Origin: Candidatus Gastranaerophilales bacterium
Lineage (GTDB): Bacteria; Cyanobacteriota; Vampirovibrionia; Gastranaerophilales; Gastranaerophilaceae
Length of the DNA stretch: 35,045 nt
Direction: 5' to 3'
Assembly (NCBI GenBank): GCA_947624685.1
Contig: CANQLJ010000017.1
Span: 1-35,045 of the forward strand
Numbering within the stretch: position 1 is the stretch's first letter; each line of letters opens with the position of its first letter. Below the pieces are notes generated by a model. The model worked only from the letters and a program-made list of their open reading frames with translations. It searched no databases and had not been told where the DNA came from. The translations under genes were made by a program, and so were the position numbers. This document shows positions 193 through 7,600 of the stretch, piece by piece.

Positions 193-347
193 CCTTGTAT
201 AGTGTCATGCTGAACTGACTAGAAAATAGCGCGCATCGAATTTTCTGTTCGTATGAAGCGTTTCAGCATCTGAGGAGTATAGAATTGCATGTTTTATTCT
301 TGCATTGGTCAGACCCTGAAACGAGTTCGGAATGACACGATACAAGG
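193..347. repeat. Nested inverted-repeat (MITE/REP-like) element
   Basis: The outer arms are at 193-216 (CCTTGTATAGTGTCATGCTG...) and 324-347. They match at 21 of 24 positions when one is reverse-complemented. Inside, ATGCTGAA at 208-215 pairs with TTCAGCAT at 262-269, and a 7-bp hairpin lies at 221-227/240-246. The right side carries GACCCTGAAACGAGTTCGG. This TCATGCTGAACT...GTTTCAGCATCT layout resembles short dispersed repeats I recall from several unrelated bacterial genomes, which are probably non-autonomous elements. No transposase is in the window. Copy number is unknown. Confidence 0.6.
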
Positions 348-375
348 TTGTTGGGATTCCAAGCATCTACTGAAT

Positions 376-407
376 AAAAAAAGTGCCCATATTGGTAAAA
401 AGGGCAC
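376..407 (-). terminator. Rho-independent terminator of the prepilin-like gene
   Basis: Read on the minus strand, GTGCCC (407-402) is followed by a 13-base loop, then GGGCAC (388-383), then seven T (382-376). It lies 43 bases after the stop codon of the minus-strand gene at 450-1982. The stem is short at 6 bp, but it is GC-rich and directly followed by the U-tract. Confidence 0.7.
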
Positions 408-449: not shown

Positions 450-1982
450 TTAATTACGAACACATGTGCCATAGCCACTGTACCAGCCGTGATCATCAAC
501 ACGAAGATGTCCTTCTGATCTACAAATATCATCAGCGCTGTTAGTTTCTACATATTTATAACCAGAAAGACAACTGGTGCAACCACTCGTAGGTGGTTTA
601 TAATTTATATATTCACATTTTATACTAGGACCGCCGTTAATTTTATCACAACACTGTATTGCCAATGAATATATACTTGCTCCGCAAGAACAACAACCGG
701 TTGGACATCTGCTATCCCCCTTCTCAACACAGGTTGAACCATTCCATATTGAACAACCTGTGCACCTTTCTGCACAGTAGCTCCCCGTCCAATACTGTGA
801 TGAAGCGCACCTGCTGCTACATCCGCTTCCATTCCAATAAAATTCGCCCGTACATTTATCAACACATGCTGTTCCATTCCATTGTTGGCTATCAGGGCAT
901 GGTGCTTGGCATGTCTTTTTGTCTGTGGAGATGAAGGTGGCGGGGGAACAACATTGCATTGTGGTACCGTCGGGACAATAGCAATTAGTGCCGGAGCAGC
1001 CTGTTGCGGAACAGTTGGTGTCTGAACATGTACTGCATGCGGTATTTCCGCCACTGGTAGAATTGGTTGCCGAGATGTACGAACCTGAACCGCAAGTGAG
1101 GCATGCGTTTTGGGCTTCATTTGGCTGATAATTACTTCCCGTACACAATTCGTAACTGCTATGTTCTTTGGAATCGTCGGGAGTGTATGTACCTGCCGGG
1201 GTCTTTGTGGGTGTTGTTTGTTTGGGGTTGGGACAATAGTACCCGTTGTTACACGGGTGCTTTGTCCCAGGAGTTGGATCTGTTCCCGATTCAGGGCAAT
1301 AATAGCCCTTTTCGCAATCTATACAAGCACTGTGGGCGGGGTTAGCGTAAGTCCCACCTGTGCAAGTTTTACAATATGTTAAAAGATTATTACTATTTTT
1401 AGCGGCGATTTTTCCGGCGGGGCATTGCGATTGGCCGGTTGCACCTTCGCTACAGGATTCGGTAGTTGAAGTTAAAGAACAGGTGTTTGGGATGTAGCCG
1501 GGGTCTGTTGGCTTTTTGTTTTTGCCATCCGGGCAATAATAGCCAATCGGGCATTTTTCGCACATGCCATCAACAAGGTAATAACCTGTTTGACACTCGC
1601 GGCATGAACTTGTGTTACAAACCAAACACCCTTCGCCAAAGCCTCTTGTGGGGTCATTGCAGGGTAAGCATGCACAAATTTCATCTTTTGTTTCAACGTC
1701 TTTAAGGTTCGCAAATTGTCCTTCGGGACAATGGTCTTGGCATAATTTACACTCTTTTCCTTTGCACATCAAGCACCAGGGCGAGATTTTAGCGCAATCA
1801 ATAGACATCGACCCTCCGCCACCTATGGTCGTCCCACTTGATTTAACTTTTTTTGTGATAATTGGGGCAAAGGCTGATGCGATGCAGGATATGACAATTA
1901 AGCTTACCAACAATTCCACAAGCGAGAACGCCAAGAGCTTTTGAAACTTATTTTTGTGAAAAAGTTTTAATAATAGTAACAT
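450..1982 (-). CDS. Type IV prepilin-like protein with large cysteine-rich ectodomain
   Basis: Predicted 510 aa. The start at 1982 is chosen because AAAGGAGTTAATAAAT precedes this ATG; an in-frame extension to 2081 has no such site and would put extra hydrophobic sequence ahead of the leader. Residues 1-18 form a basic leader, then A18|FSLVE with Glu at mature position +5, then a hydrophobic helix. This is the classic prepilin peptidase site of type IV pilins and pseudopilins. The rest is extracellular by inference and holds about 58 cysteines. Three GYYCP units resemble the Cys-rich repeats of eukaryotic receptor ectodomains. Near the C-terminus are four units of the form W-[NT]-G-x-x-C-x-x-[RK]-[CG]. 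GC and Cys/Gly codon content are visibly higher than in the neighbours. No pilus assembly genes lie nearby. It may be a minor pilin or adhesin; the ligand is unknown. Confidence 0.8.
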   Translation of the reverse strand: MLLLLKLFHKNKFQKLLAFSLVELLVSLIVISCIASAFAPIITKKVKSSGTTIGGGGSMSIDCAKISPWCLMCKGKECKLCQDHCPEGQFANLKDVETKDEICACLPCNDPTRGFGEGCLVCNTSSCRECQTGYYLVDGMCEKCPIGYYCPDGKNKKPTDPGYIPNTCSLTSTTESCSEGATGQSQCPAGKIAAKNSNNLLTYCKTCTGGTYANPAHSACIDCEKGYYCPESGTDPTPGTKHPCNNGYYCPNPKQTTPTKTPAGTYTPDDSKEHSSYELCTGSNYQPNEAQNACLTCGSGSYISATNSTSGGNTACSTCSDTNCSATGCSGTNCYCPDGTTMQCCSPATFISTDKKTCQAPCPDSQQWNGTACVDKCTGEFYWNGSGCSSRCASSQYWTGSYCAERCTGCSIWNGSTCVEKGDSRCPTGCCSCGASIYSLAIQCCDKINGGPSIKCEYINYKPPTSGCTSCLSGYKYVETNSADDICRSEGHLRVDDHGWYSGYGTCVRN

Positions 1983-2299
1983 ATTTATTAACTCCTTTTT
2001 TAAAAACATGATGAAAAAAATTTTCGCAAAAGTCATGAGCATGTTACCATGTGAAATAAATAATGTAAACATATTTATCACTTCAAATAGTAAAAAAATA
2101 TTATAATGATATAGAAACTACAGGCTAAATAGTAGTTAAATCGGGCTAAGACCAAAGGATGAACAGAAAAAAATATAAAAATATTAAACTAAATTATATC
2201 AATAACTATGTTACTATTATTTTTTTATATCAACGCAATTATGGTTCATGTATTTTATTCTAACATTTATCATATAAGTAACATACTTAAGGGATAAAT
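1983..2299. other. Divergent intergenic region
   Basis: This 317-base spacer separates the minus-strand prepilin-like gene from the plus-strand XRE regulator. It is extremely AT-rich. Apart from the SD sequences at its two edges, I see several TATAAT-like hexamers but no convincing -35/-10 pair, no hairpin and no ORF. Confidence 0.5.
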
Positions 2300-2650
2300 A
2301 TGGATAAATCATTAATCGGAAAAAAAATTAAAGAAGCAAGAATTACCCAAGGCCTCACCCAAGCGCAGCTTGCCGAGATGGTTTCATTGCATGAAAAGCA
2401 CATTTCAAGGATTGAAGCAGGAAAATATTTACCCACGTTAGAAAACATTATAAAAATATTTAAGATTTTAAAAATCGAACTTTCGATGTGCAATATTGAT
2501 GTCAAAATCCCTATAGAAGAAAATGTTATCAAAATGGAATTTATGAGGCTAATTAACAATTCGTCCGACAATGAGCTTGAATTTTATTTGGGACTTTTAA
2601 AACAAGCCCAAAAAGGCCTGGGGAAATTTAAAGCGAGCCTTAAAGTTTAA
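2300..2650 (+). CDS. XRE-family HTH transcriptional regulator
   Basis: This 116-aa protein has an N-terminal Cro/C1-type helix-turn-helix at about residues 6-60 (IGKKIKEARITQGLTQAQLA, then HISRIEAGKYLPTLENI), the standard layout of XRE DNA-binding domains. The C-terminal half (about 65-116) is helical and charged and probably serves dimerisation; no ligand domain is recognisable. AAGGGA stands 6 bases before the ATG. It is divergent from the prepilin-like gene and could regulate it, but no operator was found to support that. XRE proteins of this size also occur in phage and toxin-antitoxin settings, and neither is evident here. Confidence 0.85.
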   Translation: MDKSLIGKKIKEARITQGLTQAQLAEMVSLHEKHISRIEAGKYLPTLENIIKIFKILKIELSMCNIDVKIPIEENVIKMEFMRLINNSSDNELEFYLGLLKQAQKGLGKFKASLKV

Positions 2651-3264: not shown

Positions 3265-4662
3265 ATGATTAAATTAGATTATACAAATGTTTTAAGTGAA
3301 ACTATCGGGAATGAAGGGCTTGATTTGGCGCAAAAGTTTAATGAATATGCGCCGAAGATTCAAGAAATCATCACGAATTTAAACATGAACAAAGATAAAC
3401 CGGGGACATTTTTGCAATGGATGAATCTTGGATATAACGAAGAAACTGTTTGGTATGTAAAAGAATTTGCTTCGATGGTTGAAAATCGTTTTGATAATGT
3501 GCTGGTTTTGGGTATCGGAGGTTCGGCCCTTGGCGCAAAGGCGCTATCGGAAGCGCTTTTAAGACCATATTGGAATTTATTGGACAAAGAAAAAAGAGAC
3601 AATTTTCCAAGGATATTTTTCCTTGATAACATTGACCCCGACGAGATAAATAGTCTCTTAGATATAATTGATTTAAGAAAAACCTTGGTTAATGTCATTA
3701 CAAAATCCGGTTCAAGCGCTGAGACGATGAGCCAGTTTATGATTTTAAAAGACAGATTGTATAGTCTTTTGGGAGATGATTACAGAAAAAATATCGTTGC
3801 CACGACGGATAAACAAGCGGGGGTTTTAAGACAGCTTGCAAACGAAGAAGGATATAAGACTTTTGTTGTGCCGGATGACGTTGCAGGGCGCTATAGCGTC
3901 TTTTCGGCAGTCGGGTTAGTGCCTTTGGCGCTTGTGGGGATTGATATAGATGAGATAATTCGCGGCATAAAGATAATGGATTTGGGTCTTAAAAATACCG
4001 ACATTAATAAAAACATTGCCGCGCAAAATGCGCTCATTCATTATTTAATGGATAGGGAGAAAAATAAATTTATAAGCGTTTTAATGCCGTATTCGGCAAG
4101 ATTAAAATATATTTGTGATTGGTATAGCGAGCTTTGGGCAGAATCGTTAGGAAAAAAACTTGATTTATCGGGAAATGTCATAAACAATAACCCGACCCCT
4201 CTAAAAGCAGTCGGTGTGAGCGACCAACACTGTCTTTTGCAGCTATTTAACGAAGGAAAAAATGATAAACTGGTGACATTTATTAATGTCGATGAATTTT
4301 CAACAACGCTTGATATACCAAATATCTTTGAATATACGAATTTGAATTATCTTTCGGGAAAAACCATTAATCGCCTGATGGAAGCGCAAATTAATTCGAT
4401 GAAAGTGTCATTGTGCGACTATCAAAAGCCAAATGTCACTATTCATCTGCCCAAGATTAACGAGTATTATCTTGCGCAACTGTTTTATATGCTCGAGATG
4501 CAAACGGCGATTGCCGCGCAATTGTATAATATTGATGCGTTTAATCAGCCCGCAGTCGAACAGGCAAAGAACTATCTTTATGCGCTTATGGGCAGAGTCG
4601 GCTATGAAGAAAGCGCGCTTGAATTAGATAAAAAGATAAATAGCAAAGCATTAAACATTTAA
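3265..4662 (+). CDS. pgi: Glucose-6-phosphate isomerase
   Basis: This 465-aa cytosolic enzyme interconverts glucose 6-phosphate and fructose 6-phosphate, linking glycolysis to glycogen and cell-wall sugar synthesis. The SIS-fold sugar-phosphate sites are visible: VLGIGGSALGA at 81-91, and TKSGSSAET at about 147-154, the counterpart of SKSGTT-ET. The PGI signature appears as DDVAGRYSVFSAVG at about 204-217. The catalytic Glu lies in ELWAESLGKKLD, the His in SDQHCLLQLF, and the C-terminal FNQPAVEQAKNY holds the conserved Lys. The length fits the shorter bacterial type. It is a single gene with its own 285-base upstream region; AAGG is 7 bases before the ATG. Confidence 0.95.
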   Translation: MIKLDYTNVLSETIGNEGLDLAQKFNEYAPKIQEIITNLNMNKDKPGTFLQWMNLGYNEETVWYVKEFASMVENRFDNVLVLGIGGSALGAKALSEALLRPYWNLLDKEKRDNFPRIFFLDNIDPDEINSLLDIIDLRKTLVNVITKSGSSAETMSQFMILKDRLYSLLGDDYRKNIVATTDKQAGVLRQLANEEGYKTFVVPDDVAGRYSVFSAVGLVPLALVGIDIDEIIRGIKIMDLGLKNTDINKNIAAQNALIHYLMDREKNKFISVLMPYSARLKYICDWYSELWAESLGKKLDLSGNVINNNPTPLKAVGVSDQHCLLQLFNEGKNDKLVTFINVDEFSTTLDIPNIFEYTNLNYLSGKTINRLMEAQINSMKVSLCDYQKPNVTIHLPKINEYYLAQLFYMLEMQTAIAAQLYNIDAFNQPAVEQAKNYLYALMGRVGYEESALELDKKINSKALNI

Positions 4663-4681
4663 AATTCTTTTTATTTGTTTT

Positions 4682-7600
4682 TTATATAACATTTATGGAG
4701 CAAAAATCCCTAAATTCGCAATATTTACAACTATCTGCGCTGCAATTATTTGAAGCGGGTTCAAAATCGAGGTTTTCAATTCCTTTTATCGCGTCTTTAA
4801 AATTATTTAAAACCATTTCGCAATCGCACGCGCTTGGAGTTAATGTTACTTTTGACCCATCCAACAAAAAGACAAAAGAAACATCTTTAACGGTACTATT
4901 TGTCAATTTTTCAAAGAAATATTTATAAAGACAAATTTGATTATAATATCCCCAACTTTCCCCATCAAGCGAGATTGATTTTTCTTTTAAAGGGTTTGAA
5001 GTTTTATAGTCGATTATCGAAAAAGTGCCATCGGGGTTTTTTTCGATTTTGTCAATTATTCCATAAAATTTTATATCATCACTTTCAACTTTCACTTGAT
5101 ATTCAACCCCAAAGATATTTTCGGGGCTAATATCTAAAATATGATGATAGTACTTTTCAAGCTCGTTTTTACCTCTTATAAAATACCTGTTTTTAATAGT
5201 TTTGTTTGAAAAAGGAAATTTTTTTGATAATTCTTCATATTTTTCAAGCATTTTTGATTTTTCGATATATATTTTATTTTTAATTGCATAATTATTAACA
5301 TATTCAAAAACAGCGTGGATTAAGCTTCCATAGGCAGCGCCATCGTTAAAACCGTCACGAGCGCCAAGAGAGAGGATTTTTGAATAGAGGTATTTTCTTT
5401 TGCAATCAAGATAGGTGTTAATGGATGTTGGCGAATGAAATTTATTTTTAATTGAAGCTTTGATAAATTCTTCAAAATCTCTTTTATAATCATAAGATTT
5501 TTTTTCTAATATTTTTTTAGATTCATCAATATAGTTTTCAAGCGTCGAATCGGATAGGTCATATGTTTCCATTAAATCTTTTGCTTGAATTATCCAAGAA
5601 CTTGGAGAGCTTGCGCGTTTAGCTGAACCCATAACGTAAGATAATCTTAAAGTGTGTTTTGCTCTTGTCATTCCGACATACATATTTTTAATTCTGTCTG
5701 AAATTTTATATTCCTTCCACTGTTCATCGGTTTTATAGGTTTCTTTCGGGGTAGGAATTGTGGGTTTAAAAGATTTAGAAGAACTTTCCCATCTGTTAGC
5801 TTGCAAAGACGGCATATAGACATATTCATATTCTTTACCTTTGGAGCTATGATATGTCGTTAATTGAATTGCGTTTAATTCTACAGGAGGCTTTGATATT
5901 TTAATATCAACTTCATCATCATCTTGAACAATTAAAAGATATTCTATAAAATCAGATAATGTAACGGCGTTGTTGATTTTTGAAAAATCGTCCGCTTCTT
6001 CGATGATTTTTTTAAGAGCCAAAATATTTTCATTTTTGTTTATGGGGTTTTCCGTAAAATAGCGAAAAATTCCCGTTTTTGCTCCCGTTTCCATAACGAT
6101 ATTTTTAATTGTTTCGCTGTTTTGATAGTTTAAAAGTTCGCTATACGTTGTGATAAATTTTTCGATTTTTTCTTTGTCAACCCAATCACCACAATTTTTT
6201 ATCGTATCAATTATTGAATCATTTAAACTTAGGTTTTGAATGATTTTAGATATATCTAAAGGGTTAAATTTAAAAGGTTCCATAAGCAATAATTTTAATA
6301 TTTTATCGCCATATATTTGAGGGTTTACAAGCATTTGAAGGTAATAAAAAAGGGTTATAAAAGAATTTATCCTATAGATACTTTTTCCTTCTTTAAGTTC
6401 AACAGGAATGTTTCTGTTTTTTAATAAATCATAAAACTCCCCTAATTCGTCGTTGTTTGTTGTAATTATTGCTATTTGGGACAATTTTTTTTCGTTGCTT
6501 TTGTCTTTTGGGCACTCAGGGCTGTTAATTAAATCTTCAATTTCATCAACAATTTTTATAAATTCATCTTGCTTATTATAATATTTTGTCAGGCGGACTT
6601 TTTCTGATTTTTTTAAAATATCGTTGTTTTTTGCAATTAAATCTTTATTAATATTATATTTTTTAAAATCAGGGTTAATTTCAAGCCTTCTTGTATCTTG
6701 TTTTGATACACTTCTTGCCACATCTAAGATTTCTTGAGTGGAGCGCATATTTTCATTTAGGCAGATAACTTTTGTGTCGGGGAAGTGTTTGAGGTAATTT
6801 TCGATATTATCTAAATTTGCCCCTTGAAAAGAATAGATTATCTGATCATCATCCCCCACAACAAAGATATTTTCGCAAACCGAAGCGAGATTAAAGACAA
6901 TTGCATTTTGAATGTCATTTGTGTCTTGATATTCATCCACCATAATATAATCATATTTTTTTGCTATTTCGTTTAAAAAAGCTTTTGATTCATTAAATTT
7001 TTCCAACACGAAACAAATCATATCGTCAAAATCAATGTAGCTTAGTGCTTGGGTTTTAGACAGATATAATTCATAAAATTGCCAAATTTCTTTTGCTTTG
7101 TTTATATCAGAGGTTACTTTTTCTATTTCGCTTTTTAATTTTTCGATTTTTTTGATGTTTGTTGAATTATTTTCGATTAATTCGTGAAGCTCATATTGAA
7201 GCTCAAGCTTTTTTGGCATCCAGGACGGGTTTTTTTCGATATTTTCAAAATACTGTTCTTTGGATAATCTGTTTCTTTTAATTTCTTTTATTTTATCCAG
7301 GATTATTTTTAAATAGACATAAGGGTTATTTTTTTGGTTTTTGTATTCGATTGGGTTAATTTCATCGATACATTCTTTCATTATTTGTCTTTGGATAGTG
7401 TCACTAATTACTTTATAGCTTTCGCTAAGTTCAAAAGCTTCGGGGTTTTGAGAAATTATATCATTACAAAAACTGTGATAAGTGAAAATATTTACCCCCG
7501 ATTCAATGGTATTTAATTCTTTGTCGAGTCTTTGTTTCATCTCGCTTGCGGCGGCATCGGAAAACGTCAGGCAAAGGATTCTGCTCGGGTCGATTTTTAG

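Follow-up and report, generated by a model that had tools for sequence, protein, structure and literature searches.

The window, a stretch of 35,045 nucleotides from a Candidatus Gastranaerophilales bacterium, contains a gene whose product is best explained as a modular type IV pilin, one member of a lineage-specific repertoire that presents variable adhesins. We give this reading a probability of about 0.68. Judged by sequence and predicted fold, the protein consists of a class III leader and a pilin helix, followed by a short Gly linker and a long, disulfide-type, receptor-like rod. It belongs to a dispersed, genus-specific family, and the N-terminal segments of this family follow the genome, not the locus. 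The first-pass annotation of this DNA described the joining of a prepilin to a Cys-rich ectodomain. It contained nothing on a multigene family, on conserved slots whose content is exchanged, or on the putative gene-conversion signature of the helix.

The window gene and its product

The prepilin gene lies on the minus strand and extends from an ATG at 1982 to a stop at 450, encoding 510 residues. Its parts are listed in Table 1. The coordinates 450-1982 had been given correctly by the first-pass annotation, which named no strand. The same reading frame is open further, to a GTG at 2081. The ATG was taken as the start because relatives in the same slot, or orthologous locus, begin at the 1982 ATG; a good match to a Shine-Dalgarno sequence, AAGGAG, lies upstream of it. 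A terminator starts 43 nt past the stop codon. Since good ribosome-binding and terminator sequences bracket the pilin gene, it is probably a single-gene unit.

The mature pilin (453-1928) is 492 residues long and contains 59 Cys (58 outside the helix), which bears out the proposed fusion of a prepilin site (A|FSLVE) to a Cys-rich body. Both types of repeat that had been described are present. GYYCP units (n = 3) lie at mature residues 129, 208 and 229, and W-[NT]-G-x-x-C units (n = 4) at 350, 365, 380 and 395. For the latter the maximum was 1 in 5000 shuffles of the body. CxxC motifs number 13, compared with 7.1 in shuffles, and the heme-type CxxCH was not found in the window pilin.

The N_methyl prepilin motif of the window copy falls below the Pfam cut-off (14.1 vs 21.2 bits). 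Despite the low score the prepilin call is secure, since 32 relatives share S2, E5 and P22 without exception and several family copies in the same genome score above the cut-off. The GC content of the gene is raised, and this had been read as a possible sign of acquisition. The value of 0.448 is close to the 0.443 expected from the gene's own amino acids and the codon use of its neighbors, so acquisition by this argument was rejected.

Table 1. Features of the prepilin gene and its upstream region in the window.
Feature	Position	Strand	Basis
Intrinsic terminator, GTGCCC/GGGCAC stem, T7 tail	374..407	-	sequence; fold -11.0 kcal/mol
Cys-rich C-terminal part and stop, no known domain	450..716	-	Pfam; low pLDDT
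Four W-[NT]-G-x-x-C-x-x-[RKE]-[CG] units	717..881	-	motif search with shuffles
GYYCP / Ephrin-receptor-like array, about residues 120-300	1029..1571	-	BLASTP to L091; ELAPOR1 and Mst1 fold matches
First Cys module, family-wide, residues 45-135	1524..1796	-	invariant C45, C52, C55, C60, C63
Gly/Ser-rich linker, residues 29-44	1797..1844	-	sequence and alignment of relatives
N-terminal assembly helix, mature residues 1-28 (FSLVELLVSLIVISCIASAFAPIITKKV), with E5 and P22	1845..1928	-	S2, E5, P22 invariance; model helix 4-25
Prepilin leader, 18 residues (MLLLLKLFHKNKFQKLLA)	1929..1982	-	sequence; LINM-LL leader recurs at this slot in other species
Repeated sites AGTAACATA/TATGTTACT, between pilin and HTH genes	1975..2285		kept in the same slot of other genomes
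Divergent XRE-type HTH gene, candidate slot regulator	2300..2650	+	PF01381 E 3e-14

The upstream region

The flank of the window slot, with its HTH gene, is conserved in six genomes. It contains a 21-nt inverted repeat (1969-1989 / 2201-2221) that spans the pilin start codon and is kept across genomes of the slot. Inverted repeats in this position could flank a switching segment, that is, a phase-variable invertible promoter. Arms of 21-24 nt, compared with a shuffle maximum of 16 nt, are found in the window and in 5/6 other slot genomes, as this alternative would have it. The orientation, however, is the same in 7/7 genomes, more partial copies of the motif lie between and beside the arms, and the window has no recombinase gene. 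The constant orientation and the extra partial sites favor HTH operators, which are the simpler account, and an invertible promoter is very unlikely. The divergent XRE regulator probably controls the pilin gene through the repeated GTAACATA operators. Separately, window positions 200-345, near the contig start, resemble a dispersed TGCTGAA / TTCAGCATCTGAG repeat.

Conservation of the fusion and distribution of the family

Thirty-two relatives align across the helix and the first Cys module, and S2, E5, P22, C45, C52, C55, C60 and C63 are invariant among them. Pilin helices are typically marked by E5 and P22. The first-pass annotation had named two ways in which its reading could fail, a helix that homologs do not conserve and a fusion that is an artefact of sequencing error. 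Both were checked and are excluded by the 32 relatives, which keep the prepilin-Cys fusion together with the helix residues.

Other pilins of the same type, which the first-pass annotation had suggested looking for, are plentiful in the same genome, which has about 12 dispersed copies. Total copy number and full-length identities are uncertain, since 9/15 family matches there abut contig ends in the draft. The family is present in 27/28 genomes of the genus that were searched, with 1-24 matches per genome. A profile search at E<=1e-10 identified it in 15/289 genomes of the class and 1/89 genera, and at this threshold the Cys-rich form was absent from the other 88 genera sampled. With looser thresholds, the search also found a few other genera in which this helix is joined to Gly-rich and Lcl_C-like parts that have few cysteines. 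The genomes compared are drafts, mostly MAGs where named, and copies are cut off at contig edges.

Several further arrangements were observed. In another genus (L068 and L084, genomes G086 and G115) there are many prepilin fusions of ~900-1000 residues with Gly-rich and Lcl_C-like parts. In the genome of the window, a prepilin-like protein of 942 residues that has a Gly-rich domain lies outside the Cys-rich family (L200 2427-5252, G000:C4). A protein from another family of the order (L056 307-3291, G044) has a prepilin-like helix, then ~200 residues, then Cys-rich repeats; the same design may have arisen independently in it. At L180, a 118-residue Cys-containing prepilin (3771-4124) is encoded directly upstream of a full-length one (4128-5741). 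Frame changes split two family copies of genome G008, one near a run of A (L181 3348-5122) and one between the Cys array and the Lcl_C-like part (L184 4724-6114). These represent either slipped-strand phase variation or sequencing error.

The ectodomain

The window protein gave no Pfam ectodomain match, with none to PF07699 at E<=1 and none to Lcl_C (PF07603), and a sequence search of the PDB produced no match. BLASTP aligned it with L091, from the same slot of another species (31% over 302 aa, E 9e-31). L091 contains seven Ephrin_rec_like (PF07699) stretches (2.4e-35) and matches the Chlamydomonas mastigoneme protein Mst1 in sequence (E 7e-23). PF07699 was detected in 3/194 genomes of the class, only in this genus and at the coordinates of these pilin genes.

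The structure model of the window protein (mean pLDDT 55.9) has a helix at residues 4-25, a low-confidence linker and then Cys modules. It is confident mainly in residues 41-170 and weak elsewhere, except for parts of 221-280; pLDDT is mostly 74-93 in the first Cys module and low in the C-terminal part. The top Foldseek match was Mst1 (E 1.2e-7). ELAPOR1 matched residues 204-280 of this low-confidence model (Z 9.6, rmsd 1.3 over 67 residues), and the Cys-rich part of EphA4 matched residues 97-171, again with low mean confidence (Z 5.3). Parts of the ectodomain are thereby predicted to share the fold of Ephrin-receptor-like/TNFR-like rods. These matches, along with PF07699 in relatives, support the receptor-like character first proposed for the ectodomain.

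The heads of the family differ, being Lcl_C, Gly-rich, or none, and no head was found in the window copy. Among the relatives scanned, Lcl_C scored above the Pfam cut-off in nine and Gly_rich_2 (PF21722) was found in two. A PDB sequence search for the head of L113 gave no match. The Lcl_C fold binds glycosaminoglycans in Legionella (PMC11162425). Since this glycan-binding fold and Gly-rich heads occur in relatives, the role of an adhesin, as suggested earlier, is plausible, and such an adhesin might serve host or prey contact.

A diversity-generating retroelement (DGR) that targets the ectodomains or the Lcl_C heads was also considered. Lcl_C-type heads on a variable surface protein would suit such an element, and the genome of the window (G000) has three reverse transcriptases. 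These are located on C1, C39 and C12, contigs with no family copy, and a reverse transcriptase was not found in G003, G008 and G018, which have 7, 13 and 14 family matches, respectively. A DGR is extremely improbable and was rejected on both counts.

Slots and the helix

To define orthologous positions, 62 copies from ten genomes were compared by their 5' flanks. Fifteen orthologous slots are common to different species, and in most genome pairs the slot flanks share about 86% identity. The 108 nt that code for the helix have a mean identity of 0.79 between different slots within a genome, 0.736 in the same slot and 0.667 in other slots, a pattern in which helix-coding DNA follows the genome rather than the slot. 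The genome effect on helix identity was 0.075 (0/2000 permutations) and the slot effect 0.018 (26/2000), where the permutation counts are a guide and not a formal probability because related pairs were treated as independent. Segments of at least 95% identity were found 12 times within genomes, in every case between different slots, and 0 times between genomes.

The clearest putative gene-conversion tract is seen in the orthologs L098 and L117. Their flank and ectodomain are mostly 0.88-1.00 identical (~95% outside the tract), and identity falls to 0.75-0.81 only near the mature start (~45 codons; windows of codons 1-60). In the window gene, the helix protein is 97-100% identical to four paralogs in its own genome and 64-67% identical to six slot orthologs, and the slot flank is 75-80% identical to the orthologous slots. 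Third-codon positions of the gene share 0.33-0.77 identity with the same paralogs. Since third positions of the helix differ from those of the paralogs, protein constraint must act besides conversion. A recent event would then not account for the homogeneity of this helix, which would reflect protein-level constraint or old conversion; the constraint perhaps serves to match one pilus. In the family as a whole, gene conversion appears to keep the helix uniform per species while the outer part varies.

Two other sources of uniformity within genomes were weighed. Collapsed or chimeric repeats in short-read MAGs could generate it, and contig ends do interrupt many copies. We consider such an assembly artefact highly unlikely: copies within one genome are 72-89% identical at the DNA level, too divergent for collapse, the same pattern is found in MAGs of differently named assembly sets, and identical protein with third-position differences cannot arise by collapse. 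The second source is antigenic variation of the Neisseria type, in which silent copies feed pieces to one expressed pilin gene. It would account for the many copies, the tracts of at least 95% identity between loci of one genome, and a conserved N-terminus with a variable C-part. It is quite unlikely, given that the slots have distinct leaders of their own, most with a start codon in an open frame, that the tract held in common is the constant N-terminus and not the variable part, and that no single expression site was identified.

Pilus and disulfide machinery

The genome of the window encodes PilB, PilC, a secretin, PilT and the prepilin peptidase PilD. The question of whether DsbA/DsbB or VKOR is present was answered by a VKOR-DsbA fusion, a candidate partner for oxidative folding, and VKOR was found in 30/30 genomes searched. 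Since one genome encodes both the components of a type IV pilus and this VKOR-DsbA oxidase, disulfide-rich pilins are plausible.

The model (mean pLDDT 55.9) predicts no globular pilin domain between the helix and the Cys array, so the pilin is possibly held in the membrane and not polymerised. The prepilin helix would then be only a membrane anchor or a type II-type pseudopilin, and the rod would stay in the envelope or periplasm, where it might act as a spacer or metal binder, a use that the 13 CxxC motifs would allow. We regard this as unlikely. E5 and P22 are invariant, and the helix is identical among paralogs of the genome despite synonymous divergence, which suggests a packing constraint. 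An outer-membrane secretin and the PilT retraction ATPase are present, the heads of relatives are of an outward, glycan-binding type, and a disulfide oxidase occurs together with receptor-like disulfide folds.

Discussion

Modular type IV pilins comprise >1,200 proteins with 264 architectures (Raynaud et al. 2021, PMC8179133). As in S. sanguinis PilB and PilC (PMC8179133), the class III leader and pilin helix of the window protein are joined to an additional, putative binding module that is not specific to pili. Described modular pilins have a small pilin module with one or a few domains and are few per genome (PMC8179133), whereas here a long Cys-rich receptor-like rod directly follows the helix and the paralogs are many and dispersed, with a homogenised helix. 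The modular pilin was already known (PMC8179133). What is new here is the Cys-rich receptor-like rod, along with the homogenised helix and a repertoire of this size.

Other known systems resemble single parts of this design. Ephrin_rec_like / GCC2-GCC3 arrays (Eph receptors, ELAPOR1, Chlamydomonas Mst1) resemble the rod in Cys spacing and, by a model of low mean confidence, in predicted fold, but here the array is on a bacterial prepilin, and the window copy has diverged too far to match the Pfam model. Legionella Lcl (PMC11162425) has the Lcl_C domain of many relatives, though not of the window copy; it is carried by a collagen-like trimer, and in the relatives it would be borne on a pilin. 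The Myxococcus Kil pilus (PMC12075869) has several alternative tip pilins with variable outer domains on one pilus, as is proposed here. Kil differs in being Tad-type with four tip complexes and no Cys-rich rods, and no description of gene conversion was found for it in PMC12075869. Neisseria pilE/pilS likewise combines a pilin family, gene conversion and a constant N-terminus. There, a single expressed gene receives sequence from silent partial copies and conversion affects the variable part, whereas here the constant helix appears to convert among leader-bearing slots.

For the modular pilin that we favor, the following scheme is proposed. PilD would cut the leader, and VKOR-DsbA would form the disulfides of the rod in the periplasm. 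The helix, with E5 and P22, would pack into the type IV pilus, probably at or near the tip, and the rod may hold the variable outer part off the cell, so that it could act in the animal gut as an adhesin that binds glycans or proteins. Gene conversion plus purifying selection would keep the assembly helix uniform among the copies of each species, and the outer parts would meanwhile diverge or undergo exchange. One pilus would thereby gain many interchangeable binding proteins. We suggest further, tentatively and at somewhat less than even odds, that the genus uses ~12-24 fixed-slot loci with differing ectodomains, and that ongoing conversion limited to the helix keeps the copies compatible with the pilus as the ectodomains diversify. 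If true, a helix kept by conversion together with diversifying ectodomains would be a new way to maintain a modular surface repertoire.

Gastranaerophilales, which are relatives of cyanobacteria, are common in the gut and mostly uncultured. In the open-access literature we found no report that combines an ephrin receptor-like part with a pilin, no report of this family under Gastranaerophilales and pilin, and none on how Gastranaerophilales attach. The family partly explains the assembly breaks in genomes of the genus. Its members are candidate attachment factors of Gastranaerophilales, in which a eukaryote-like receptor rod would serve as a bacterial pilus ectodomain. They may also offer a clean natural example of a single protein whose assembly interface and ligand-binding part are under opposite evolutionary regimes.
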